Part shown: positions 3,624 to 13,663 of the stretch, in pieces
How the letters are laid out: every line of letters starts with the position of its first letter
Numbering within the stretch: the first letter of the stretch is position 1
Notes under the pieces: generated by a model
The model's input: only the letters and a program-made list of their open reading frames with translations
What the model was told of the DNA's origin: nothing
Database searches by the model: none
NCBI GenBank assembly: GCA_016209665.1
Contig: JACQVT010000032.1
Location: 1-13,663 of the forward strand
Source of the DNA: Planctomycetota bacterium
GTDB taxonomy: Bacteria; Planctomycetota; Phycisphaerae; UBA1845; PWPN01
Direction of reading: 5' to 3'
Length of the DNA stretch: 13,663 nucleotides
Made by a program: the position numbers and the translations under genes

Positions 3624-3932
3624 ATGTCAATTGTGGCCGTTGACCCCCCCGAGTGGGGGAAATCAAACACTGTTCAGTTGGACAGTGACGCTCCGCGCAA
3701 TGAGATGGCCATCCACGAGATTGACGAGTGGGCGGCCGAAAACGGCTTTGCCCGGGTAACTGAGTATTATCTGCGTCCCATCCTAAGACATGATGGGCGC
3801 CGGGTGTTTCGGGGGATCTGTTACCGATTGACCGCCGAGGAGATATCTTCGGCGGAGGAAGCATGCCGGAAGAATGCTGAGGCCTTGGCCACGATGCCCG
3901 TCACGCCTCACCGGGCCGGCAGGGGTCGTTGA
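3624..3932 (+). CDS. Unknown 102-aa protein upstream of a PIN-domain gene (antitoxin candidate)
   Basis: I do not recognise a family. The ATG at 3624 has a strong GAGGAG site 8 bases upstream (3610-3615), so the start is well supported. The first 25 residues look disordered (DPPEWGKSNTVQLDSDAPRN). Residues about 28-68 look folded, with alternating helix and strand (AIHEIDEWAAENGFARVTEY then YLRPILRHDGRRVFRGICYR). A charged helix follows (LTAEEISSAEEACRKNAEAL). Only 12 bases separate it from the PIN-domain gene, the usual antitoxin-before-toxin order, so it may be the partner; it lacks a recognisable VapB-type DNA-binding motif. A 60-base sample of the gene is about 52% GC, lower than the surroundings, which suggests separate acquisition. 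Confidence 0.75.
   Translation: MSIVAVDPPEWGKSNTVQLDSDAPRNEMAIHEIDEWAAENGFARVTEYYLRPILRHDGRRVFRGICYRLTAEEISSAEEACRKNAEALATMPVTPHRAGRGR
3668..3687. repeat. Small inverted repeat near the 5' end of the 102-aa gene
   Basis: CACTGTTC (3668-3675) pairs with GGACAGTG (3680-3687) around the loop AGTT: 8 pairs, one G-U. It lies about 45 bases into the coding region. In toxin-antitoxin loci such palindromes can be autoregulatory operators, or it could be an mRNA hairpin. It may also be chance. Confidence 0.3.
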
Positions 3933-3944
3933 CCGGACACTGAC

Positions 3945-4439
3945 ATGGCTCACCGTCGCCGGATCGTACCTGACAACTCGGTCATACTGCCGGCGTTCTT
4001 CCAAGAGGAATTCGTCTACAAAAACAACCGTTTTGATCTCACTCGGCGGGCTAAACCCCTCGCCGACGCCATCCGCAGCCGTGGGGTGGATGCCTTCGCC
4101 CCGGACTTCTTGATGCATGAGTTCATGGCCCAGGCAACCGAAAAGGCCCGGTGCCGCGACCACTCACCAGTCCTGGAAATGGACGTGGTTGGCCGCCAGC
4201 TTGAGCAGTTCAGAGCCTTGCCCATCACCTACGCTCCCTGCAATAAGCTGGCCCCCAGAGCCTGGACGCTGGCAACAGACCTTGACCTTTCCGTGGCCGA
4301 CGCATGGTATCTTGCCTGTGCGATTGAATACGATGCGGAGTTCTGGCTGTCCCACGAACACTCCGATGGACTCGCGGAACGCGCAGCGAGAGCCCATCCG
4401 GGCGGCGTCCATTTGCTCGTCCATGAGCGTTTCGGGTGA
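3945..4439 (+). CDS. PIN-domain protein, VapC-like ribonuclease toxin candidate
   Basis: A 164-residue single-domain protein of the PIN nuclease superfamily, whose acidic residues bind Mg/Mn to cleave RNA. Seen: the first acidic residue D10 in VPDNSVILPAFF, a second acidic residue E59 in APDFLMHEFM, and D119 in LSVADAWYLACAIEYDAEFW, followed by LSHEHSDGL where VapC proteins usually have T-x-D. Because that last motif is altered (S136/E138), the fourth metal ligand is uncertain. It lies 12 bases after the 102-aa gene and 15 bases before the AI-2E-family gene. There is no clear ribosome-binding site, so translation may be coupled to the gene before it. The family is fairly sure; that it is a toxin is inferred from gene order. 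Confidence 0.82.
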   Translation: MAHRRRIVPDNSVILPAFFQEEFVYKNNRFDLTRRAKPLADAIRSRGVDAFAPDFLMHEFMAQATEKARCRDHSPVLEMDVVGRQLEQFRALPITYAPCNKLAPRAWTLATDLDLSVADAWYLACAIEYDAEFWLSHEHSDGLAERAARAHPGGVHLLVHERFG

Positions 4440-4454
4440 ACAGGGAGGCACCGC

Positions 4455-5657
4455 GTGGAACTCGACCTTCAACGTTTCTACAACATCAACCGCCGGGTGC
4501 TGATGTGGATCGCGTTCTTCGCGATCCTGTACCTGCTGCGGCACTTTTTCGCGGTGATGTTCCTGACGTTCATCTTCGGGTTCGTGATGCGCAAGGTGGC
4601 GCGGTTCCTGGCCCAGCGGACCGGGGCTCCGCACTGGCTGGCGGTGGTCGGGCCCTATCTGGTGATGCTCGCGCTGCTGATCGGCCTGCTGACGATGGCC
4701 GTGCCGCGGGTCGTGGATGAGGGGGTGCGGTTCTCGCAAAAGGTGCCCAATTTGCTGCACACGCTGGCCACCGAGGTGGAGAAGGCAGCCGGCGAGTACG
4801 GCCTGGAGTCGACGCTGGCCCGCCTGGTCAACCCGGAGACCGCGGCCAGTGCCCCGGCCACCGCGGCGGCCGACGTCGAACTGACCACCCGCCCCGTCGA
4901 GCCCGCCGTGAACATCGCGAGCATGACGGCCCGAATCCAGCGCTGGCTCCTGGACCTGTTCCCGCCGGCGATGATCGTCGACTTCATGCAGGCCGTCCTC
5001 AGCGGCACGCTGCAGTTCCTGCTGGCGTTTCTGCTGTCGTTCCTGATCGTGCTGGACTTCGACCGGATCGCCCACGAACTGCGGGTCTGGCGGGAAAGCC
5101 CGGTCGGCCGGTTCTTTCACGAGGCGGCTTCCAGCGTGGTCGAGTTCTCCGAAGTCGTGGGGACGGCGTTCCAGTGCCAGATGGTGATCGCCCTGCTGAA
5201 CGCCTCCATCACGTCCATCGGGCTGACCATCCTCGACATCCAGCCGGTCGCCCTGCTGACCACCATCGTTCTGTTGTTCGGGCTGATCCCCGTGCTCGGC
5301 GTGTTCGTCTCGTCGGTGCCCATCATCCTGATCGCGTTCAACGACTTCGGGTTGAGCCACGCCCTGCTGGCCCTGGGGGTGATCGTGATCGTCCACCTGC
5401 TGGAGGCCTACGTCTTCAACCCGCGGATCTACGCGGCCCGGTTCCATCTCAACCCGGTCATCGTGTTGATCATTCTGCTGGTGGCCCACGAGCTGTTCGG
5501 CGTGTGGGGCATGCTGCTGGGCATCCCGGTGACGCACTATGTCCTCAACGTCGCCCAGATGCCGTCCTATCCCCGCAAGCGGCGCCGGTCGCGGAGGCAG
5601 CAGGGGCTCCCCGGCGACGGGGCGGCCGGACCCGCTCCCGACGGCTCACGCCCGTAG
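4455..5657 (+). CDS. AI-2E family transporter (PerM/UPF0118)
   Basis: A 400-residue inner-membrane protein of the AI-2E exporter/PerM family, members of which export small molecules or exchange ions; the substrate here is unknown. Hydrophobic segments lie at about 15-45 (two), 61-84, 180-200, 241-260, 264-295, 300-320 and 333-365, with a soluble stretch at about 85-170. Family motifs are GLIPVLGVFVSSVP (276-289), HLLEAYVFNPRIY (314-326) and the final NPVIVLIILLVAHELFG. The tail from 370 is basic, then Gly/Pro-rich. The start is GTG at 4455, chosen because AGGGAGG (4442-4448) sits 6 bases upstream. The last 12 bases overlap the end of the convergent permease gene. It is close behind the PIN gene and probably shares its transcript. 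Confidence 0.93.
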   Translation: MELDLQRFYNINRRVLMWIAFFAILYLLRHFFAVMFLTFIFGFVMRKVARFLAQRTGAPHWLAVVGPYLVMLALLIGLLTMAVPRVVDEGVRFSQKVPNLLHTLATEVEKAAGEYGLESTLARLVNPETAASAPATAAADVELTTRPVEPAVNIASMTARIQRWLLDLFPPAMIVDFMQAVLSGTLQFLLAFLLSFLIVLDFDRIAHELRVWRESPVGRFFHEAASSVVEFSEVVGTAFQCQMVIALLNASITSIGLTILDIQPVALLTTIVLLFGLIPVLGVFVSSVPIILIAFNDFGLSHALLALGVIVIVHLLEAYVFNPRIYAARFHLNPVIVLIILLVAHELFGVWGMLLGIPVTHYVLNVAQMPSYPRKRRRSRRQQGLPGDGAAGPAPDGSRP

Positions 5658-7280
5658 CACCGGCCGGCGGATTTCCACGCGGATGGCATCGGCCAACGGG
5701 TGATCGACGCGACGCTGCGTACCGTCCGGACAGCGGATGGTCCAATCGACCTCCCCGGACTGCCCGACGACCTGGATCTCGGCCCCCAATGGCAGAGCCA
5801 GCGCGGCGATCCGCGAGAGGACCTCGCCGGTCGCCGATCCGTCGATCCCCCGGATGAGGGCCACGTCGCCTTCCCGCAGCCGCGCCAGGTGCGTCTCCGC
5901 GCCTGCGGCCAGCAGCTCCGGCGGGCGGGGAATCCGCTTGCCATGCGGGTCGTGCACGGGGTGGCCGAGCAGGTCGTCAACCCGATCCAGCAGTCGCTCG
6001 CTCAGCAGGTGCTCGATCTCCTCGGCGTCGGGATGGGCGTGGTCCAGGGCGATCCCCACCTGGTTGACCAGATAGGTCTCCCACAACCGATGTGCCCGCA
6101 CGATCCGTCTGGCCTGCCGGAAGCCCTTGTCGGTCAGGCGGACCTGGTCCTCGGGATCGCACTCGATCCAGCCATCGCGCTGGAGACGGCGGCAGTATTT
6201 CCGCAGATCGGCCGGCAGCATCCGAAGCTGTTCGCCCAGCACCGAGGCCCCCACGACGGCCTCCGGCGCCGGCGAGGGGCGCAGGTTGAACGCCGCCCGC
6301 AGGAAGTTCTCGCGGGCAATGCGCGTCGCCAGTTGCCAGCGCCGCAACACTCGCAGCAGCACGCCGTGTCTGGGCGAGGCCAGCCAGGTCACCAGGAACA
6401 TGCCGAACGACACCACGGCGATCGCCCCGGCGGTCGAGCAGTCGAGCCACAGGGCCACGTGGAAGCCGACCACCGCCGAGACGGCGCCCAACCCCGCCGC
6501 CAGCAACACCATGCGGGCCAGCCGGTCCGTCAGCAGGTAAGCCGTCGCGCCCGGGGCGATCAGCATGGCCACCACCAGGATCGCCCCCACCGCCTCCATG
6601 CCGCTCACCACGGTAACGGACACGGCCGCCATCAGGGCGTAGTGTACGGCGGCGGCGGGAATGCCCAGGGCGGTCGCGGTGGCCGCGTCGAACGACGTGA
6701 TCTTGAGTTCCTTGAAGAACAGGACGGCCGCGACAACCACGGCCACCGCCACCCCGCCCATCGTCTTGACGCGATCCGGCCGCAGCCACGACATCTCGAT
6801 CTCACCATACAGCACGCAGTGGGCGTCGAGGTCCACCCCCTCCGTGAACCGGGTGATCAGCACCACGCCCAGCGCGAACAAGGTCGAGAACACCACGGCG
6901 ATGGAGGCATCCTCCTTGACCCGCGTCCGCCGGTGAATCAGCTCGATGAGCACGACGGTAAGCAGCCCCGCCGCCACCGCCCCGGCGATCATCGCCACCG
7001 CCCCGCGGCTGCCCGTCACCAGAAAGGCACCGGCCAGGCCCGCGAGCAGGGCGTGGCTGATCGCGTCCCCGAGCAGGGCCTTGCCGCGCAGCACCAGGAA
7101 ACATCCCAGTACCGCGCAGGGCACTGCCACGAACACGCCCATCGCCACGATCCAACCTGTGAACTCGACGTTGCGCGTCCAGGGCTCGATCAGGTGCTCG
7201 AAGAAGTCGAAGCGGCGGACCAGCGGCTCCGCCGAGGAAGCCAGGAGGCAGACGGCCGGGTGTGGAATCGCGATACTCAT
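5646..7280 (-). CDS. Metal ABC transporter permease fused to a full DtxR-type repressor (with FeoA-like domain)
   Basis: A 544-residue fusion. Residues about 35-305 are an ABC-3 family permease with seven to nine membrane helices, including LVLRGKALLGDAISHALLAG (63-82) and GMEAVGAILVVAMLIAPGAT (227-246), as in ZnuB/MntB/TroC. Residues about 320-395 are a winged helix-turn-helix. Residues about 396-455 match the DtxR/MntR metal-binding dimerisation domain: H398 and E401 (AHRLWE), H416, E420, E423 and H424 (HPDAEEIEH), and DPHGKRIP. Glutamate at 420, where DtxR has cysteine 102, is the MntR-like state. The N-terminal ligand (Asp8 of MntR, Met10 of DtxR) aligns with N325, so that site is altered. 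Residues about 456-544 look like the FeoA/SH3-like domain. The ATG at 7280 overlaps the stop of the preceding permease (ATGA). Confidence 0.92.
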   Translation of the reverse strand: MSIAIPHPAVCLLASSAEPLVRRFDFFEHLIEPWTRNVEFTGWIVAMGVFVAVPCAVLGCFLVLRGKALLGDAISHALLAGLAGAFLVTGSRGAVAMIAGAVAAGLLTVVLIELIHRRTRVKEDASIAVVFSTLFALGVVLITRFTEGVDLDAHCVLYGEIEMSWLRPDRVKTMGGVAVAVVVAAVLFFKELKITSFDAATATALGIPAAAVHYALMAAVSVTVVSGMEAVGAILVVAMLIAPGATAYLLTDRLARMVLLAAGLGAVSAVVGFHVALWLDCSTAGAIAVVSFGMFLVTWLASPRHGVLLRVLRRWQLATRIARENFLRAAFNLRPSPAPEAVVGASVLGEQLRMLPADLRKYCRRLQRDGWIECDPEDQVRLTDKGFRQARRIVRAHRLWETYLVNQVGIALDHAHPDAEEIEHLLSERLLDRVDDLLGHPVHDPHGKRIPRPPELLAAGAETHLARLREGDVALIRGIDGSATGEVLSRIAALALPLGAEIQVVGQSGEVDWTIRCPDGTQRRVDHPLADAIRVEIRRPVLRA

Positions 7281-8647
7281 CCCTTCACCCGTGGAATCTC
7301 GTGGCCGTGGGGGTCGAGGTCGGGATGGTCAAGCCCGGCTTCCAGCCGGGCCACGATCTCCTCGCCGAGCACGTGCTCGATCTCCTCGGCATCGCGATGC
7401 ACGTGATCGGCGGCGATCCGCGCCTCCTGCGTGAGGTACAGCTCCCACAGGCGATGATTCCGGATGATCTGCCGGGCGCGTTGCTGCCCGACCGACGTGA
7501 GCGTCAACCGGTCGCCCGCCAACCCGGCCAGCCCCGACGCCGCCAGCGTGCCGGCCACGCGGCGGACGTAGCCGACGGTCTCGGATCGGGCTCGAGCCAG
7601 CCGCTCGAGCGTCACCGGTTGGTCGAGTCCCTCGCCACCGAGTTCGTGATAGAACGTCTTGAGCAGGTTCTCCAGGCGCACGCGGCGGCTGCGCCTGGAC
7701 CGTCGGATCGCGCGTATCGCCACTCCTTGCCGGGGACTGAGCAGGTAGGCCAGTCCGAACCACGTAGTGGCGGCCAGGACCATGCACGGCCCGGTGGGGA
7801 TGCGGTTCAGCAAGAAGCTGAGCAGGACCCCGACGAAGCCCGACAACACCCCCAATAACGCCGACAACGCCAACATGCGGCCCAGCCGGTCCGTCAGCAG
7901 GTAGGCCGTCGCCGCCGGCGTGATCAGCATGGCTGACACCAGCACCACCCCCACCGCCTGCAGGGCGATCACGATGGCCAGGGCGAGCAGAGTCATTAAC
8001 GCAACCTGGATCAGCCTGACCGGCATGCCGATCGACGCCGCGAAGCTCTCGTCGAAGCTGGTGGCCAGGAAGTACCGGAAGAACAGCGAGATCACCAGCA
8101 CCACCACCAGCGTCACCAGGCCCATGAGCTGCAAGTCACCGCGGCCCAGGGCCGCCGCGTCGCCGAACATGTAGCGGTCCAGCCCGCTCTGGTCGCCGTA
8201 GGCCATCCGCTGAATGCGGGTCAGCAGGATGATCCCCAGGCCGAAGAAACCCGACAGGGCCAGACCCACGGCGGTGTCGGATTTGATCCGGCTGTACCGC
8301 GAGATCACGGAGATGACCAGACTGGCGAGCACGCCGGAGATGATCGCCCCGGCGAAGATCGCCAGGGCATTCTTGGTCTGCACGACCACGAACGCCAGGC
8401 AGATGCCCGGCAGGACGGCATGGCCGATCGAATCCCCCAGCAGCGACATCTTCCGCAGGACGACGAAGGAGCCCAGCAACCCGCAGCAGACGCCCAGCAG
8501 CACGGCCCCCACCACACCATAGACCAGGCTGACGTGCTGGAACGAGAAGAACGCGCCGAGCTGCTCCCACAGCCCCGCGGTGCTTTCCACCCGGGCGGCC
8601 AGGATCCTCGGCATACCAAAGGCCAGCATGTCCGCCGAAGCCATCAT
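7277..8647 (-). CDS. Metal ABC transporter permease fused to DtxR-type repressor domains (no FeoA-like domain)
   Basis: A 456-residue paralogue of the next gene in the operon. Residues about 38-305 are the ABC-3 permease (LVYGVVGAVLLGVCCGLLGS; VVLRKMSLLGDSIGHAVLPG; AVGVVLVSAMLITPAATAYL). A basic linker (AIRRSRRSRRVR, 312-323) follows, then a winged-helix region (about 324-396) and the metal-binding dimerisation domain: H398, E402, H417, E421, E424 and H425 (NHRLWELYL; HRDAEEIEHVLGEE), ending with DPHGHEIP. The protein stops there, so the SH3/FeoA-like part present in its partner is missing. The start ATG at 8647 shares ATGA with the ATPase stop; the ATG at 8644 is also possible. The two unequal permeases probably form the heterodimeric channel of one importer. 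Confidence 0.92.
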   Translation of the reverse strand: MMASADMLAFGMPRILAARVESTAGLWEQLGAFFSFQHVSLVYGVVGAVLLGVCCGLLGSFVVLRKMSLLGDSIGHAVLPGICLAFVVVQTKNALAIFAGAIISGVLASLVISVISRYSRIKSDTAVGLALSGFFGLGIILLTRIQRMAYGDQSGLDRYMFGDAAALGRGDLQLMGLVTLVVVLVISLFFRYFLATSFDESFAASIGMPVRLIQVALMTLLALAIVIALQAVGVVLVSAMLITPAATAYLLTDRLGRMLALSALLGVLSGFVGVLLSFLLNRIPTGPCMVLAATTWFGLAYLLSPRQGVAIRAIRRSRRSRRVRLENLLKTFYHELGGEGLDQPVTLERLARARSETVGYVRRVAGTLAASGLAGLAGDRLTLTSVGQQRARQIIRNHRLWELYLTQEARIAADHVHRDAEEIEHVLGEEIVARLEAGLDHPDLDPHGHEIPRVKG

Positions 8648-9429
8648 CGCTCGCTCTCCGCCACCGCCTGTGCCGCGTCAGACAGGATCGTCAGCCGTCC
8701 ACCGTATGTCTTTTGCAGCAACTCGGGCGTGAAGACCTGCGGGGTCGGCCCACACGCCACCAATCGCATGTTGAGCAGGATCATCGTGTCGAAGTACTCG
8801 GGGGCCGTCTGCAAGTCGTGGTGCACCACCAGGCAGGTCTTGCCCCGGTCTCGCAGTTCCTTCAGCAGGGTGATGATCGACGTCTCGGTGGCCGCGTCCA
8901 CGCCCACGAACGGCTCATCCATCAGGTAAACCGTGCTTTCCATCGCCAGGGCTCGGGCCAGAAAGACGCGCTGCTGCTGCCCGCCGGACAGGTTGCTGAT
9001 CTGCCGCCCCGCGAACGGGGCCATGCCCACCTTCTCCAGGCACTCGCGGGCGATCCGCTTGTCGTCGCGCCGCGGATGCCGCAGCAACCCCACCCGGCCG
9101 TACCGCCCCATCAACACCACGTCGAACGCCGTCACCGGGAAATCCCAGTCCACGCTCTCGCGCTGCGGCACGTAGCCGATCAACCGCCGCTGCTTGTGAA
9201 CCGGCTGGCCGTAGCACTTCACCCACCCGCTGGAGAGCGGCAGCAGGCCCATCACCGCCTTAATCAGCGTGCTCTTGCCGGCGCCGTTGGGCCCGATGAT
9301 CCCGACGAGCTGGCCCTCGCCGACGGTCAGGTCCACGCCCCACAGCACGGGCCGGCGGTGGTAGCTGACCGTCAGATCGTGGATCTCCACGGCCGGTTCA
9401 CCATTCGATCGGCGAGAATCCTTGTGCAT
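8644..9429 (-). CDS. Metal ABC transporter ATP-binding protein (ZnuC/MntB/TroB type)
   Basis: A 261-residue ATPase that powers the importer on the cytosolic face. Walker A is GPNGAGKST (46-54), the Q-loop glutamine is Q89 in YVPQRESVDWDFPVT, the signature is LSGGQQQR (147-154), Walker B is VYLMDEP (167-173), and the H-loop is VVHHD (201-205). The PQRESVDWDFPVTAFDVVLMGRYG-type context, here residues 88-111, is typical of Mn/Zn/Fe transporters. The ATG at 9429 is supported by GAGGG (9437-9441) 7 bases upstream, so the gene overlaps the end of the binding-protein gene by 32 bases. A later GTG at 9390 would avoid the overlap but lacks a good ribosome site. The tight overlaps on both sides indicate translational coupling. 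Confidence 0.95.
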   Translation of the reverse strand: MHKDSRRSNGEPAVEIHDLTVSYHRRPVLWGVDLTVGEGQLVGIIGPNGAGKSTLIKAVMGLLPLSSGWVKCYGQPVHKQRRLIGYVPQRESVDWDFPVTAFDVVLMGRYGRVGLLRHPRRDDKRIARECLEKVGMAPFAGRQISNLSGGQQQRVFLARALAMESTVYLMDEPFVGVDAATETSIITLLKELRDRGKTCLVVHHDLQTAPEYFDTMILLNMRLVACGPTPQVFTPELLQKTYGGRLTILSDAAQAVAESER

Positions 9430-10417
9430 CTGGTCGCCCTCGGATCTCCGCGGAGCCGGACCCCGCGGCCGACTTCATCCATTTTAGCGCATCGGCGATC
9501 GTGTTCATGTTGTGCCGGACCATCCCAATGTAGGTACCCTCCGGGGTGCCCGGCCCGCCCAGGGCGTCGCTGAACAGCTCTCCACCTTCCACCACGTTCC
9601 AGCCGGCCCGGCGACAATCCTCGATCACCGCCCGTATGGCCTTCGGTGAGACGCTGGACTCGGTGAAGATCGCCTTGATCCGCCGGGCCGCGATCAGGCG
9701 GCTCAACTCGACAATCGCCCGACTGGTGGCCTGCTCCTCGGTGGAAATACCCTGGATGCCGATGACCTCGAACCCGTAGGCGCGCCCGAAATAGTTGTAG
9801 GCGTCGTGGCTGGTCACCAGGACCCGCTGATGGGGGACCAGCTCCGCCGCCCGGCTCCTGCACCAGGCGTCCAGTTCCGTCAGACGGGCGAGGTAGGCTG
9901 CCGCCGCCCGATCGTAGTCGTCCGCGTGCCGGGGGTCGGCCTCCCGCAGGGCGTCCCGGATGGTTTCGGCCGCCCTCGCCCACAATTGGACGTCGAACCA
10001 GACGTGCGGATCGTAAAGGCCGCCGAACTGCGGCGGCTGCAACAGCCGCGCCCGGTCGATGTCGCGGGTCACGGCAATCGTCGGCTTCCGCCGGGCCAGC
10101 GCCTCCAAGACCTCGGTCAGCTTGCCCTCGAGATGCAGGCCGCCATAGAGGACCAGATCCGCCCCCACCAGCCGGGCCACGTCGCCGGCACTGGCCTTGT
10201 ACAGGTGCGGGTCGACCCCTGGCCCCATCAGGGCGGTCACCTGCACGTGCTCCCCGCCGATCTCGCGGATCACGTCCGCGATCATCCCGATCGTGCAGGT
10301 GACGCGGAGGCGCCGCTGCCCCGCCGAATCGGCGCGCGGCTCACCCGACCCGCAACCGCCAAACAGACCGGCTGCCAGAACGATCCACCACAATCCCTGC
10401 TTCGACCAGGTGTTCAT
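9398..10417 (-). CDS. Metal ABC transporter substrate-binding lipoprotein (TroA/ZnuA/MntC family)
   Basis: A 339-residue cluster A-I solute-binding protein that captures a divalent metal outside the inner membrane. The N-terminus has a signal peptide (WWIVLAAGLFGG) ending at C22, a lipobox-like site, so it is probably a lipoprotein. Metal ligands are visible: H71 (GVDPHLYKAS), H138 (YDPHVWF), H204 (VTSHDAYNYF) and D284 (ELFSDALG). Three histidines plus aspartate is the TroA/ZnuA pattern rather than the two-His/Glu/Asp PsaA pattern. There is no His-rich loop, so zinc versus manganese cannot be decided. GISTEEQAT (223-231) and FTESSV are family motifs. The ATG at 10417 was chosen because it precedes the signal peptide and lies 8 bases after the stop of the small ORF. 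An upstream in-frame GTG at 10555 would bury the signal peptide and is rejected. Confidence 0.93.
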   Translation of the reverse strand: MNTWSKQGLWWIVLAAGLFGGCGSGEPRADSAGQRRLRVTCTIGMIADVIREIGGEHVQVTALMGPGVDPHLYKASAGDVARLVGADLVLYGGLHLEGKLTEVLEALARRKPTIAVTRDIDRARLLQPPQFGGLYDPHVWFDVQLWARAAETIRDALREADPRHADDYDRAAAAYLARLTELDAWCRSRAAELVPHQRVLVTSHDAYNYFGRAYGFEVIGIQGISTEEQATSRAIVELSRLIAARRIKAIFTESSVSPKAIRAVIEDCRRAGWNVVEGGELFSDALGGPGTPEGTYIGMVRHNMNTIADALKWMKSAAGSGSAEIRGRPDAQGFSPIEW

Positions 10418-10425
10418 GCGTGGGA

Positions 10426-10773
10426 TTACGGGCCCTCGGTCACCCATTGTAGCCAGCCGCCGATGCCCAACATCGCCAGCATCGTTCCCGATATCGCCAC
10501 GGGCCACGGTATCGCTGATTCCGTCGTAGACTCCATCCACCAGTGCTTCCGTCACCTTGCAGCCCGCGGCGGGGACTCCATCGACGGCGAAGGCTCTCCC
10601 GAATCGGGCGGCACCGGCTGCGAGAAGGGGAAGGACCCAGGCGCATCACGGCCCTCGACGGACCGACTCGTGGCACTGCCGTCGGATGTCTCCTCGACGC
10701 AGGGCCGAGGCACTCCATTCAGCGCCCAGGCCGCCTGGCCCACCCGCAACGTGTGATTCCGTTCCAACGGCAT
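10426..10773 (-). pseudogene. Small putative membrane-protein gene interrupted by an in-frame TGA, first gene of the metal operon
   Basis: One reading frame runs 115 codons from ATG 10773 to TAA 10426-10428, broken only by TGA at 10552-10554. The first part (73 aa, from MPLERNHTLRVGQAAW) has a GGAAGGG ribosome site (10783-10789) 9 bases upstream and ends in a Pro/Ser-rich linker (PVPPDSGEPSPSMESPPR). The second part (41 codons) contains one membrane helix (PVAISGTMLAMLGIGGWLQW). It could instead be translated alone from ATG 10536 as a 36-aa protein. By hand count, G/C at third positions is about 78% before and 80% after the TGA, against about 59% for the competing troA-frame reading of the same DNA, which supports real coding sequence on both sides. 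It ends 8 bases before the binding-protein ATG. No family is recognised. Nonsense mutation, two small genes, recoding or a sequencing error all remain possible. Confidence 0.4.
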
Positions 10774-10815
10774 CGATCCAAGCCCTTCCGCGGCCACCGT
10801 GAAACCGTTCCAAAA

Positions 10816-10829
10816 TTAGGGACACCTAA
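10816..10829. promoter_or_regulatory. DtxR/MntR-type operator palindrome
   Basis: TTAGG-GACA-CCTAA is a perfect 5-base inverted repeat. Two further A/T pairs outside it (10813-10814 with 10831-10832) extend the symmetry. The TTAGG...CCTAA half-sites are those of DtxR/IdeR-family boxes. It lies at about +5 to +19 relative to the start predicted from the minus-strand promoter, where a bound repressor would block transcription of the metal operon. Confidence 0.6.
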
Positions 10830-10840
10830 CTTCGTCGGAT

Positions 10841-10868
10841 AGTATAGCCTGATCATCGGCGAAGGCAA
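10841..10868 (-). promoter_or_regulatory. Predicted promoter of the metal-transport operon
   Basis: On the minus strand, TTGCCT (10868-10863) and TATACT (10846-10841) are separated by 16 bases, matching 4/6 and 5/6 of the sigma70 consensus. Transcription would start near 10834, right beside the operator and about 60 bases before the small ORF. From here to 11000 no gene or clear terminator is seen. Confidence 0.5.
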
Positions 10869-11000
10869 GTCCTGATTTTTCGGGAAAACCGCGCGGCCGG
10901 ATCGTTTGCCTCCGTGCGTCCCGGGCGAGGGCGTGCGAATCCAAACCATCGCCGGAGTCGGGGTGGGAGGAAATGGAGATATGGCTGACTCACGCACCGA

Positions 11001-11456
11001 TCAGGCGACCGTGTGCTGCATTCGGGTACACAGGCCACGAAGTTGCTCGATATGCGCTTGATGCCGGTTGTAGATGCGGGCGACGGTCTCGGCCGCCTCG
11101 GGCAGCAGCGAGTTCGCCTCCCGCATCGTACGGTCGTACAACTGAACGAGGTGCTCCACGCCGGCCACGACGCGGGGCAGAAGCGTCTGCAGATCCAGGT
11201 AGTGCAGGTTGGCCGTGGTCACATCGGCACAGGCGGGCCGCAGGGCGCCGCCGCAGGCTTCCGCCGCCTCCAGCAGCCACGCCTCGTGAAGGGCCTGGTC
11301 GGCGGCCATCCGCCTCACCTGCTCCATCTCGTGGGCCAGGGCCCACTGGGCGAACACGCCCATCTCGGCCAGCCGCGGCAGCAGGGACCTCTTCTCCGCC
11401 GCGTACAGCTTGTTCAGCACGTCGAGGGTGTCGTCTCGCTGGTTCTGCGGAGTCAT
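11001..11456 (-). CDS. Small helical protein, possibly ferritin-like, at the end of the nuo operon
   Basis: A 151-residue, almost entirely helical protein with four amphipathic helices at about 8-33, 36-68, 82-112 and 117-147. Acidic and histidine residues are spaced as in ferritin-like four-helix bundles: E21, E43, H57/E58, E101/H102, H132/H135/E137. The pattern is not a clean E-x-x-H pair in each half, so the assignment is tentative; a DUF892/DUF2383-like helical bundle is an alternative. The ATG overlaps the nuoN stop as ATGA, so translation is coupled to nuoN. Because nuoN ends in inserted repeat DNA, this junction may have arisen after the insertion. No signal peptide or membrane helix is visible. 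A role in complex I is not established. Confidence 0.8.
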   Translation of the reverse strand: MTPQNQRDDTLDVLNKLYAAEKRSLLPRLAEMGVFAQWALAHEMEQVRRMAADQALHEAWLLEAAEACGGALRPACADVTTANLHYLDLQTLLPRVVAGVEHLVQLYDRTMREANSLLPEAAETVARIYNRHQAHIEQLRGLCTRMQHTVA

Positions 11457-13231
11457 GGATGCCCACCTGAGAGTGCGTCGCCCGATGTCATGGCGAAGTC
11501 CGTCTCCGTGGCGACCCGTCGCTCGCGCTCCGGAAAAACAGAGCCCCGAGCGCCAGCGAGTGGGCTGCTGCGGGCAGCGACGCCCCCCCTCACCGGATCA
11601 ACCCGTCGCTCGCGCTCCGGGCTCTGAAGCGTTGTCTGCTGGCCGGCGGGGAAGAAGAGGTTCGATGCGTAGGCGCTGGCCCGATCGCCGAGCGGACCGA
11701 AACAGATCGTCCCCAGCAACAGCAGCAGCACCGCACAGGCGTGCACCATCACCAGGCCGCCAAAGGGCGCGTCGAACGCCGGCTGCCGCGGATCGTCGGC
11801 GAGGTACATCTGCCGAACGACGCCCACGTAGTAATACAGGCTGATGACCGTGTTCACCACCGCGACGATCACCAGCACCCACAGCCATTCCTGCCCCGCC
11901 ACGGTCGCCGCCTTGCCCAGGGCGATCAGGAGCCACCACTTGGCGGCAAAGCCGCCCAGGGGCGGCAGGCCGATCAGCGAGAACAGACACACCGCCATCG
12001 GCAGGGCGAGCCAGGGTGACCGCCGGCCCAGGCCCGTGAACGACGAAAGCTGGTCGCTGCCCGTCCGCCAGGCGACCATCGCCGTGATGCCGAACGCCCC
12101 CAGGTTCATCAGCAGGTAGACGAAGAGGTAGGCGATCAAGGCCGCGGTCGCGGCGTTCGAGCGCGCCGCCAGCGCGGGCGGCACGAAGATCGCCGTCAGC
12201 ATCATCATGTAGCCCGCGTGTGCGATCGAGGAGTACGCCAGCATCCGCTTGACGCTGGTCTGCCGCAGGGCCGCCAGGTTACCGACGGTGCAGGTGACGG
12301 CGGCGATCGCGCCGATGCCGTAGGCCAGCGGCATGGCCGCCTCGCCCGCGCCGGCGCTCACGAACGCGAGCACGATCCGCAGCAGGAGGCCCAGGCCGGC
12401 CGCTTTGCTGGCCACGCTCAGCCAGGTGGTGACCTCGATCGGGGCCCCCTCGAACACGTCCGGGCACCAGAAGTGCACGGGCACGGCCGATATCTTGAAC
12501 GCGATCCCCACGCCCACGCCGAGCAGGCCGAGCCAGCCCAACACCCCCACCGGGGCCGGGTCCAAGGCCATTCGGGCCGCGATCGTCGGCACGTCCAGGG
12601 TATGGAAGACGCCGTACAGCAGCGAAATGCCATAGACCATCACCGCGGCCGTCGTCGCCCCGAACAGCACGTACTTGAGCGAGGCCTCGGCCCCCGGCCG
12701 CGAACGCTTGTCGCTGGCGACGATCGCATAGCTGGGCAGCGAAGCGGTCTCGATCGCGATCATGATCACCAGGAGGTTCAACGTACCCACCATCAGGCAC
12801 ATGCCCAGGGCGCTGGTCAGCAGCAGGACGAAGAACTCGGGCGGACTTTGCAGCGCCGCCCGCGTCCGGTCGGGGGCGGCTTCCCGCGACGCGACGCCGA
12901 TCAACCACAGCCAGGTGATGAGGGCCAGGAACATCGAGATGAACAGCTTGAAGAACACCGAGAAGTTGTCGACGATCAGCATGGGCGTCGATTGCGCCGG
13001 GGCCATGCCGGCCAACCCGCCCGACACCACCCGAACGGCGGTGTGGGCCGTCAGCATCAGCGCTGCGAGCGTGCCCAGCAGCGCCACTGCGGAGGTCACC
13101 TGGGCATTGCGGCCCGCGACCATGGCCACGATCAGCACCCCCACGATCGCCCCCACCAAGCCCAATTCCGGCCCGAAGAGGTGCAATTCCTGTGCCGTGG
13201 GCATCCAGATGTCCGCTTGTCCCAGAATCAT
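11453..13231 (-). CDS. nuoN: NADH-quinone oxidoreductase subunit N, with repeat-derived C-terminal tail
   Basis: An antiporter-like, proton-pumping membrane subunit of complex I, with about 14 hydrophobic segments. Family residues are visible: E161 in MIAIETASLPSYA, K186 in AEASLKYVLFG, K246 in GIAFKISAVPVHFW, and PDVFEGAPIEVTTWLSVASK ending at K276. The start is ATG 13231, 43 bases after nuoM, with GGA a few bases upstream; ATG 13204 is possible. The protein is 592 residues, longer than the usual 480-550. The last 55 residues (538-592) are not membrane protein: PERERRV occurs twice and PLAGARGSV once, encoded by the GC-rich repeat element at 11514-11620. The native protein probably ended near residue 537 (LFFPAGQQTTLQS). 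The stop overlaps the next gene by four bases. Confidence 0.95.
   Translation of the reverse strand: MILGQADIWMPTAQELHLFGPELGLVGAIVGVLIVAMVAGRNAQVTSAVALLGTLAALMLTAHTAVRVVSGGLAGMAPAQSTPMLIVDNFSVFFKLFISMFLALITWLWLIGVASREAAPDRTRAALQSPPEFFVLLLTSALGMCLMVGTLNLLVIMIAIETASLPSYAIVASDKRSRPGAEASLKYVLFGATTAAVMVYGISLLYGVFHTLDVPTIAARMALDPAPVGVLGWLGLLGVGVGIAFKISAVPVHFWCPDVFEGAPIEVTTWLSVASKAAGLGLLLRIVLAFVSAGAGEAAMPLAYGIGAIAAVTCTVGNLAALRQTSVKRMLAYSSIAHAGYMMMLTAIFVPPALAARSNAATAALIAYLFVYLLMNLGAFGITAMVAWRTGSDQLSSFTGLGRRSPWLALPMAVCLFSLIGLPPLGGFAAKWWLLIALGKAATVAGQEWLWVLVIVAVVNTVISLYYYVGVVRQMYLADDPRQPAFDAPFGGLVMVHACAVLLLLLGTICFGPLGDRASAYASNLFFPAGQQTTLQSPERERRVDPVRGGVAARSSPLAGARGSVFPERERRVATETDFAMTSGDALSGGHP
11514..11620. 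repeat. REP-like direct and inverted repeat element in the 3' end of nuoN
   Basis: A 20-base sequence ending in CGCTCGCGCTCCGG occurs identically at 11514-11533 and 11601-11620, 87 bases apart (29 codons, so in frame). Between the copies, 11543-11564 forms an imperfect inverted copy able to pair with the first, and 11564-11568/11574-11578 (GCTGC/GCAGC) forms a small hairpin. On the nuoN strand it encodes the PERERRV and PLAGARGSV peptides. From memory, similar peptides recur at the ends of unrelated planctomycete proteins, as expected of a dispersed element. Confidence 0.75.
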
Positions 13232-13245
13232 GTCGTTTTTCCGAG

Positions 13246-13264
13246 CCGGGTTCTGTGAACCCGG
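13246..13264. other. Perfect 8-bp hairpin in the nuoM-nuoN gap
   Basis: CCGGGTTC-TGT-GAACCCGG fills most of the 43-base gap between the nuoM stop (13275) and the nuoN start (13231). On the transcribed minus strand no T-run follows, so it is not a normal terminator there. It ends 14 bases before the nuoN ATG, so it could be an mRNA processing or stability element that adjusts subunit ratios. Confidence 0.6.
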
Positions 13265-13274
13265 TGCAGTCCCG

Positions 13275-13663
13275 TCAATGCAGCCCCATCGTTGCCATCG
13301 CCACGTCCTGGACCGCGGTCGCGTGCAGCAGGCCCGCGATCTGCTCCAGCGTGCCGTTCATGAACCTAAACAACGTCTGCTCGGGCAGCACGCCCAGGGC
13401 AATCGCCAGGATGGCAAAAGGTGTCAGGATGAATACTTCGCGTCCGGTCGCCTCGGGCAGCCCGGCGTACTCCTCGCGGACCTTGCCCAGATAGACCCGC
13501 TGGATCATCCACAGGATGTAACCCGCGGTGAGCACCACGCCGAAGGCCGCGATGACCGCCATCGGCTTGGCCCACGTAAATGGGGCCGACAGCGTGGCGA
13601 TCAGCACCCAGAACTCGCCGATGAAACCGCACAGCCCCGGCAGGCCCAGCGACGCAAAGAACC
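13275..13663 (-). CDS. nuoM: NADH-quinone oxidoreductase subunit M, C-terminal part
   Basis: The last 129 codons of a complex I antiporter-like subunit; the 5' part runs off the right edge of the window. FFASLGLPGLCGFIGEFWVL right at the edge is the conserved NuoM motif, followed by WAKPMAVIAAFGVVLTAGYI and LWMIQRVYLG. A further hydrophobic segment (VFILTPFAILAIALGVLPEQ) precedes a short tail ending GLH. The place just upstream of nuoN on the same strand is the standard nuoL-nuoM-nuoN order. No irregularity is seen in the visible part. Confidence 0.93.
   Translation of the reverse strand, partial: FFASLGLPGLCGFIGEFWVLIATLSAPFTWAKPMAVIAAFGVVLTAGYILWMIQRVYLGKVREEYAGLPEATGREVFILTPFAILAIALGVLPEQTLFRFMNGTLEQIAGLLHATAVQDVAMATMGLH

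Follow-up and report, generated by a model that had tools for sequence, protein, structure and literature searches.

What might a DtxR-type regulator be doing at the end of a metal transporter? The question is raised by a contig of 13,663 nucleotides (nt) from a Planctomycetota bacterium (GenBank assembly GCA_016209665.1, contig JACQVT010000032.1; contig C272 in our numbering), which is referred to here, over its whole length, as the window; its genome assembly is 4.87 Mb, 77.55% complete and in 940 contigs. The minus strand carries an importer operon, with overlapping adjacent frames, encoding a ZnuA-family binding lipoprotein, an ATP-binding cassette (ABC) ATPase and two tandem ABC-3 permeases, each of which continues into a DtxR/MntR-type tail. 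We consider, with a probability of about 0.6, that these tails are the DtxR switch recast as a transporter-mounted metal sensor, which probably slows uptake at high cytosolic metal.

The two permeases and their tails

The permease genes, and the parts of their tails, are as follows (aa, amino acids; HMM, hidden Markov model; pLDDT, predicted local distance difference test).

7277..8647, minus strand: first ABC-3 permease with DtxR-type tail, 456 aa (PF00950 at residues 41-300, PF02742 at 384-453)
7643..7723, minus strand: first permease, predicted coupling helix, residues 309-335 (length measured; helix by homology with two models)
7499..7615, minus strand: first permease, eroded winged-helix region, residues 345-383 (no PF01325; winged-helix HMM 5.4 bits)
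7289..7498, minus strand: first permease, metal-binding/dimerisation domain, residues 384-453 (Pfam, ligand positions)
5646..7280, minus strand: second ABC-3 permease with DtxR-type tail and SH3/FeoA-like end, 544 aa (Pfam, AlphaFold2, Foldseek)
6282..6362, minus strand: second permease, predicted coupling helix, residues 307-333, including N325 (AlphaFold2, block pLDDT 89-96)
6135..6248, minus strand: second permease, eroded winged-helix region, residues 345-382 (no PF01325; winged-helix HMM 13.8 bits)
5925..6134, minus strand: second permease, metal-binding/dimerisation domain, residues 383-452 (Pfam, ligand positions)
5664..5897, minus strand: second permease, SH3/FeoA-like beta domain, residues about 462-539 (model)

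Both frames are open over the coordinates that an earlier, sequence-only reading had given them, and the genes overlap by 4 nt. That reading had described two tandem ABC-3 permeases each fused to a DtxR/MntR-type sensor, a description borne out by Pfam, by the metal ligands and by structure matches. The HMM domain search that it had proposed, run here as Pfam, found ABC-3 and Fe_dep_repr_C (PF02742) in the first permease (residues 41-300, E 4.6e-69, and 384-453, E 2.8e-22) and in the second (39-299, E 4.9e-56, and 383-452, E 1.5e-26); neither tail matched the DNA-binding model PF01325, and the second permease had no FeoA match. The permease class thus follows from PF00950 in both proteins and a PsaBC-like fold in the modelled second one (7kyp; template modelling (TM) score 0.86 by Foldseek), within an operon that also holds a ZnuA-type binding protein and an ABC ATPase. 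PsaBC, and by sequence ZnuB, share this permease domain, but their PDB chains, at 260-290 aa, are too short for such a tail.

The tails match solved DtxR/MntR-type regulators in sequence, with E values from 4.4e-24 (5zr4) to 2.7e-6 for the second permease and from 2.6e-14 (DR2539, 8pvt) to 2.8e-4 for the first. An AlphaFold2 model of the second permease (64 sequences; mean pLDDT 90.3) predicts, in order, the permease, a long helix (307-333), a winged-helix unit composed of helices and a two-strand wing, then the metal/dimerisation helices, and finally a beta domain at the C-terminus, this last being the SH3/FeoA-like domain that is present in the second permease only; FeoA itself is matched in 38 of 64 fused proteins, although not in this one. 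The modelled tail superimposes on Mn-bound DR2539 with a TM score of 0.86 and a root-mean-square deviation of 2.0 Å over 132 columns (Foldseek). Both tails have the PF02742 domain and the H/E...H...E..EH ligand pattern, with ligand positions that align in sequence with those of DR2539, namely H398/E402/H417/E421/E424/H425 in the first permease, exactly as the sequence-only reading had numbered them, and H397/E401/H416/E420/E423/H424 in the second, where that reading had H398 for H397 and the rest correct. Asn occupies, in both tails (N327 and N325), what we take to be the position of MntR D8 and DtxR M10. The winged-helix region claimed by the same reading stands as a modelled fold in the second permease and fails as a Pfam match in either tail; because PF01325 is unmatched, the winged helix of the window tails is a statement at the level of fold.

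The fold and ligand set of the tails are therefore those of DtxR, IdeR, MntR and DR2539, from which the tails differ in being fused to a membrane protein, in lacking a PF01325 match, in an invariant HRLWE motif, and in a poorly conserved recognition helix and wing, as set out below.

Metal site, link and DNA-binding half across the family

Family comparisons, given in second-permease numbering, were made over 159 tails (157 distinct; two are copies, L132 being identical to L037). Loci L023-L102 were found partly through an HRLWE pattern, such that HRLWE invariance is partly built in there; the fairer set comprises 63 tails from L103 onward, which were retrieved with the PF02742 model, although a permease with a decayed tail would still be scored there as bare. 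G386, H397, L399, W400, E401, E423 and H424 are invariant in 159/159 tails, and H397, W400, E401, E423 and H424 are each present in 63/63 of the fairer set. Free variation of the ligands among homologues, which the sequence-only reading had named as a point that would tell against it, is thus absent from the core (H397, E401, E423, H424) and limited elsewhere, positions 325, 416 and 420 varying mostly among Asp, His, Asn and Glu. Position 325 is D in 91 tails, H in 37 and N in 31; position 416 is H in 112, D in 46 and Q in one; position 420 is E in 82, D in 58, H in nine, G and M in four each, and Q and N in one each. Residues 325, on alpha1, and 416, on a metal helix, swap identities, being D/H in 89 tails and H/D in 32. 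In two-tailed loci the commonest 325-416-420 pairing is H-D-D in the first tail with D-H-E in the second (22 of 46 pairs); the window's two tails are both N-H-E. This exchange suggests a single site spanning the hinge, though the sequences are related and it may reflect one or few events. To judge from the alignments, the core metal site is kept in the tails.

The attachment of the tail is equally constant. Position 324 lies 18 residues beyond G306, the invariant glycine at the last membrane helix, in 159/159 tails, including 63/63 of the fairer set, despite a loop within the tail that varies mostly between 13 and 21 residues; in the first permease the equivalent stretch, G308 to E326, is also 18 residues and runs into alpha1 of the tail. 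Scored by pattern, the 18-residue link is found in 239 of 241 proteins, and the two misses, which differ at a later pattern letter, are also 18 by reading. These 241 proteins are the window's two together with the top-ranking 120 from one search and 119 from a second, each of which scored 8000 candidates. AlphaFold2 draws the link as a single helix both in the window's second permease (307-333) and in a single-chain relative (291-319; mean pLDDT 78). It is basic (K+R mean 6.2, D+E 0.6 of 20 residues), as expected of a cytosolic segment adjoining the membrane. Because this predicted coupling helix carries position 325, metal bound at 325 and the HRLWE/EH helices would act directly on a segment running into the membrane, and it is for this reason that we propose it as the transporter's readout of the DtxR hinge movement.

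The DNA-binding half presents a different picture. PF01325 is matched by 38/38 stand-alone DtxR proteins, 3/64 fused proteins and 0/29 single-chain fusions, whereas PF02742 is matched by all members of the same three sets; the 38 were drawn from a set of 51, with 13 left out by hand (near-duplicates, some short proteins, others with no set pattern, and four FeoB-type rows unmatched by PF01325). The stand-alone sets of 51, 27 and 35 rows used in these comparisons include up to four FeoB-type rows without a canonical helix-turn-helix, the exclusion of which widens the contrast (recognition helix, 2.52 bits in stand-alones and 1.25 in tails). Against an HMM of the stand-alone winged helix, the median for held-out stand-alones is 59.5 bits (n = 35, minimum 7.5), whereas the medians of the tail groups are 0.7-5.6 and the highest-scoring tail has 24.1; 0/159 tails score as high as the lower quartile of the stand-alones. 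The corresponding medians for the metal part are 72.2 and 44.8-59.6. Information per column is higher in tails than in stand-alones over the metal helices (397-426), and clearly lower over the helix-turn-helix and wing.

The same pattern is seen in mean pairwise identities over 20 loci having both a fused permease and a stand-alone DtxR. The stand-alone proteins are equally conserved in winged helix and metal part (0.608 and 0.611), whereas the values are 0.331 and 0.813 for first-permease tails and 0.325 and 0.635 for second-permease tails; the permease cores (first, second) give 0.603 and 0.625, and the coupling helices 0.527 and 0.494. The winged helix is therefore the least conserved part measured, and the metal part is conserved at least as well as the permease core. 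By these sequence measures, the DNA-binding signature of the tails is eroded.

Relatives, FeoB-linked sensors and the separate DtxR

PF02742 is matched in 55 of 61 genomes around the window; in 38 of the 61 it lies in a frame of at least 430 aa, and 30 of these 38 have more than one frame of that size. Loci of named origin belong to Planctomycetota, Verrucomicrobiota, Bacteroidota, Balneolota, Latescibacterota, Poribacteria, Bipolaricaulota, a contig titled Deltaproteobacteria, and Symbiobacterium. The architecture is real and not due to chance, and the window belongs to a wide group with sensor-like tails lacking a DNA-recognition signature.

Its arrangement varies. Counting the window, there are 115 permease loci: both permeases of a pair are tailed in 47, one of the pair in 19, a single permease is present and tailed in 47, and no tail was counted in two, with the provisos that the tail-less L078 is cut by a contig end, that some single-permease loci lie on short contigs, and that the second permease of L069 belongs to another operon. 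A tailed first and bare second permease, as in Chlamydia, where we take YtgD to be the bare second permease, is seen at 16 loci (with the same reservation for L069). The 241 proteins divide into 206 of permease-tail form, 29 permease-tail-permease single chains and six of permease-permease-tail form. The single-chain importers (P0132-P0226, 29 proteins; P0133, P0137, P0146, P0151, P0201 and P0240; some from Phycisphaerales or Pirellulales by source) fuse both permease halves, with the sensor in the middle or at the end; the model of P0132, the relative mentioned above, matches PsaBC and, more weakly, DtxR/MntR chains. As several lineages have one tail per two permeases, dimerisation of tails, which the sequence-only reading had suggested to occur beneath the channel, is not obligatory for the family.

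Two further oddities were seen among these loci. In the Bacteroidota loci L046 (6178-7929) and L068 (6217-7935), a ZnuA-type binding protein and an ABC ATPase share one frame of 584 and 573 aa, respectively, with both domains confirmed by Pfam, which is odd for a periplasmic and a cytosolic protein. At 36 loci of L023-L102, many from Saprospiraceae, neither an ATPase nor a binding-protein gene accompanies the tailed permease in the fetched sequence (some stretches being short or cut); 12 of these, rechecked with looser limits, still had none.

A related sensor occurs beside FeoB. The tail tree separates 19 of 22 stand-alone proteins from the tails, with full support, and places the remaining three within the tails; these three combine a membrane segment with a tail-like sensor and a pair of FeoA domains, and adjoin split FeoB genes. 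The window's second tail is placed away from the other second-permease tails in this tree, which has few columns for its many rows and an unsettled bootstrap, and is thus no firm guide to their history. In a survey of 22 loci, chosen mainly by frame length and not at random, a sensor with a FeoA region lies beside FeoB in 14, seven with exact HRLWE; the remainder comprise three canonical-looking DtxR proteins with FeoA beside FeoB and five loci with no FeoB shown. A hydrophobic segment precedes the sensor in eight of the 14, five of which keep P..G plus 18 residues, and in five genomes of the window's family the FeoB-linked sensor is the only PF02742 match. The membrane-anchored sensor with FeoA beside split FeoB (FeoB_N and Gate/FeoB_C on separate frames) is found at L024:3011-6300, L139:2014-5001, L140, L138, L141, L142, L156 and L158, and a FeoB-adjoining sensor with no membrane segment at L144 and L146-L150. 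FeoA is reported to interact with the FeoB G-domain, and FeoA-DtxR fusions were removed from the dataset of that study (PMC8980893). The FeoA/FeoB link pertains to relatives and not to the window, and is by neighbourhood only; to that extent, finding such a sensor next to another metal importer, unrelated to the first, speaks for a role in transport.

The window's genome has a separate regulator, the one further PF02742 gene in the assembly being a 217-aa DtxR with PF01325, PF02742 and FeoA on contig C224. A separate shorter DtxR-type frame was found in 18/18 named genomes searched that have a fused permease (covering 18 of 80 loci) and, by listed length, in 34 of 38 genomes with a fused-size frame, or 35 when G032 is included, where the listed frame reads through stops and corresponds to a 184-aa open reading frame (ORF); among these 38, none was found in G002, G007 and G024. 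A separate DtxR gene lies inside the fetched stretch at 23 of the 34 loci L103-L136, and at 21 of 39 named loci with a binding-protein gene. The remaining features of the window operon are as follows:

8644..9429, minus strand: ABC ATPase of the importer (Pfam, ORF list)
9398..10417, minus strand: ZnuA-family substrate-binding lipoprotein (Pfam; start inferred)
10816..10829, minus strand: DtxR-type operator-like palindrome TTAGGTGTCCCTAA (TTAGG-N4-CCTAA; pattern scan, one of two in the genome)
10841..10868, minus strand: promoter-like site TTGCCT-16-TATACT, directly upstream of the palindrome and facing the operon (one found, 0.1 expected)

The lipoprotein start is placed at the ATG before a lipoprotein-like signal; the mechanical ORF start is 10555. 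TTAGG-N4-CCTAA occurs only twice in the genome, before the window operon and before the stand-alone DtxR, a count that alone is not decisive, the reversed-pattern control also giving one site. Both palindromes sit inside a duplicated segment (about 420 bp, 79% identity) whose two copies share the palindrome arms but differ in the four-base spacer. The window's copy (10564-10975, duplicating C224:1197-1620) holds the 5' part of a gene, the promoter and the operator; on C224 the gene is full-length, encoding 361 aa with no Pfam match. The arrangement looks like a copy of a DtxR-controlled promoter placed upstream of the window operon. A scan of 38 further stretches (L103-L140) gave one exact copy, at L137 from the window genome, and single-mismatch sites at L103 (same genus), L121 and L128 (near a stand-alone DtxR); because further copies are few, the operator is argued for the window's genus only. 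In the same-genus genome, a site that departs from the DtxR consensus at two positions lies 29 bp from the edge of the binding-protein frame. Transcription is thus probably left to a stand-alone DtxR/IdeR-like protein acting on the putative TTAGG-N4-CCTAA operator.

As to the surroundings, a small ORF followed by a PIN-domain protein (3624-4439), possibly a toxin-antitoxin pair, adjoins the operon. The nuoM/nuoN genes and a 151-aa ORF (about 60-76% identical) flank the metal operon both in the window (11001-13663) and in the same-genus L103 (7433-9999), where the operon is of opposite orientation and of a distant subtype, with permeases about 30-43% identical to those of the window. The shared flank and distant operon suggest that the metal operon has been replaced at one site between these genomes.

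Repressor, buffer or transporter-mounted sensor

We propose that cytosolic Fe2+ or Mn2+ would bind between alpha1 and the HRLWE...H..AE..EH helices. Metal binding moves the winged-helix unit of DtxR and IdeR by a hinge movement; it would similarly move that of the tail, the movement would travel along the coupling helix to the permease and ATPases, and uptake would be slowed when internal metal is high (trans-inhibition), with transcription handled by the separate, ordinary DtxR/IdeR-like protein. The sequence-only reading had offered two mechanisms, gating of uptake and a membrane-tethered repressor; the former is favoured and the latter disfavoured because the family signature is gone from the DNA-binding half and an ordinary DtxR gene is present as well.

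The nearest known system is YtgC-R of Chlamydia (CT069, ytgABCD), in which a permease with a C-terminal DtxR-like domain is encoded in a binding protein-ATPase-permease operon (PMC5599777, PMC6504234) and which is described as being cleaved into an iron-dependent repressor (PMC5599777, PMC6504234, PMC7755916), YtgR being the only identified iron-dependent regulator in Chlamydia. The fused architecture is therefore of a known kind, the suggestion that its mechanism was altogether undescribed does not hold, and a blanket claim that such tails bind no DNA is contradicted by this precedent. The window differs in that both permeases are tailed, in that its genome has a separate canonical DtxR, such that the tail is not the sole DtxR-type regulator, and in that its tails lack the Pfam DNA-binding signature, YtgR being compared here by description and not by sequence. 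Among the matches listed in our literature searches, none reported permease-DtxR fusions outside Chlamydia. ABC importers with an added substrate-sensing regulatory domain are themselves known, MetNI and ModABC being listed in a review of transporter control (PMC10710835), a word search of the text of which returned no DtxR; their domain is on the ATPase and of other folds, whereas that of the window is on the permease and of DtxR fold, and inhibition in the window would be by analogy.

The main rival follows from the Chlamydia precedent: the tails might be cut off, or internally started, to give soluble metal-dependent repressors of their own operon. Release of the YtgC-R tail is reported also on expression in E. 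coli (PMC5599777, PMC7755916), the domain order is the same, and the 16 loci with a tailed first and bare second permease resemble that arrangement. A scan for internal starts over residues 300-384 found none with a Shine-Dalgarno sequence in the first permease and one in the second, the GTG codon of residue 343, which has GGAGG 5 nt ahead of it; this makes an internally started tail of the second permease conceivable. We nonetheless regard this explanation as unlikely, given that the DNA-binding signature is eroded in every tail group, that the link is invariant in length and modelled as a continuous helix, that tails placed between two permease halves (29/241 proteins) would need two cuts for release, and that a separate DtxR with intact PF01325 is present in the window genome. 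The same objections apply to an intact permease binding its operator at the membrane, which we judge the least probable alternative in spite of the predicted winged-helix fold and the operator-like palindrome before the operon, since the winged helix varies within one bacterial order (about 0.33) compared with 0.61 for stand-alone DtxR. Cleaved and tethered repressors were accordingly rejected as the principal interpretation, on the eroded DNA signature, the fixed link, the buried tails and the separate DtxR.

Two rivals dispense with DNA binding. A tail at the channel exit could take incoming metal for delivery without gating, which would suit the invariant ligands, the fixed position of a cytosolic domain and the FeoA-like domain on some tails; it is improbable, somewhat more so than release of the tail, because the conserved fold is that of a two-state sensor, because the helix entering the permease carries position 325, and because the 325/416 identity exchange suggests one site across the hinge, albeit from few independent events. 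A tail that served only in assembly or dimerisation, its metal being structural, would make sense of PF02742 as a dimerisation domain, and single-tailed-permease loci (47/115, some on short contigs) could form a symmetric tail dimer; however, single-tail pairs and permease-tail-permease chains need no such dimer and the FeoB-linked sensor is left unexplained, making this explanation very doubtful, nearly as much so as the tethered repressor.

Several observations weigh against a transporter-mounted sensor. YtgR, the only studied relative, is reported to be released and to bind DNA, and the candidate internal start points the same way. Erosion is incomplete: PF01325 persists in the three fused proteins noted above, at 13.8 bits the window's second tail scores highest for the winged helix among the second-permease tails in two-tailed operons, and the winged-helix fold is still predicted, with a divergence that is compatible with DNA binding. 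The metal part has drifted too, though far less (2/159 tails come up to the lower quartile of stand-alone proteins), conservation of the tails in alpha1 and residues 427-452 is somewhat below that of stand-alones, position 325 is Asn and not Asp in both window tails, and position 420 is Gly or Met in 8/159. Many systems have one tail for two permeases, so tail dimers are not a general feature, and the identity of the metal and the direction of the effect are assumed.

A broader proposal, to which we give even odds, is that this is a portable, helix-coupled sensor that has lost DNA recognition, kept its core metal site and become fixed 18 residues past the membrane helix, on one, both or fused ABC-3 permeases across several phyla and, in a related FeoA form, beside FeoB, thereby giving direct post-translational feedback while a paralogous DtxR handles transcription. 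Rapid shut-off of high-affinity metal importers before toxicity is known for few systems. If the sensor reading is correct, Mn/Fe/Zn ABC importers in Planctomycetota, Verrucomicrobiota, Bacteroidota and other groups would carry their own cytosolic metal gauge, built from the same fold as their transcriptional control; permeases annotated as DtxR-regulator fusions would often not be gene regulators, and Chlamydia YtgR may be a special case.

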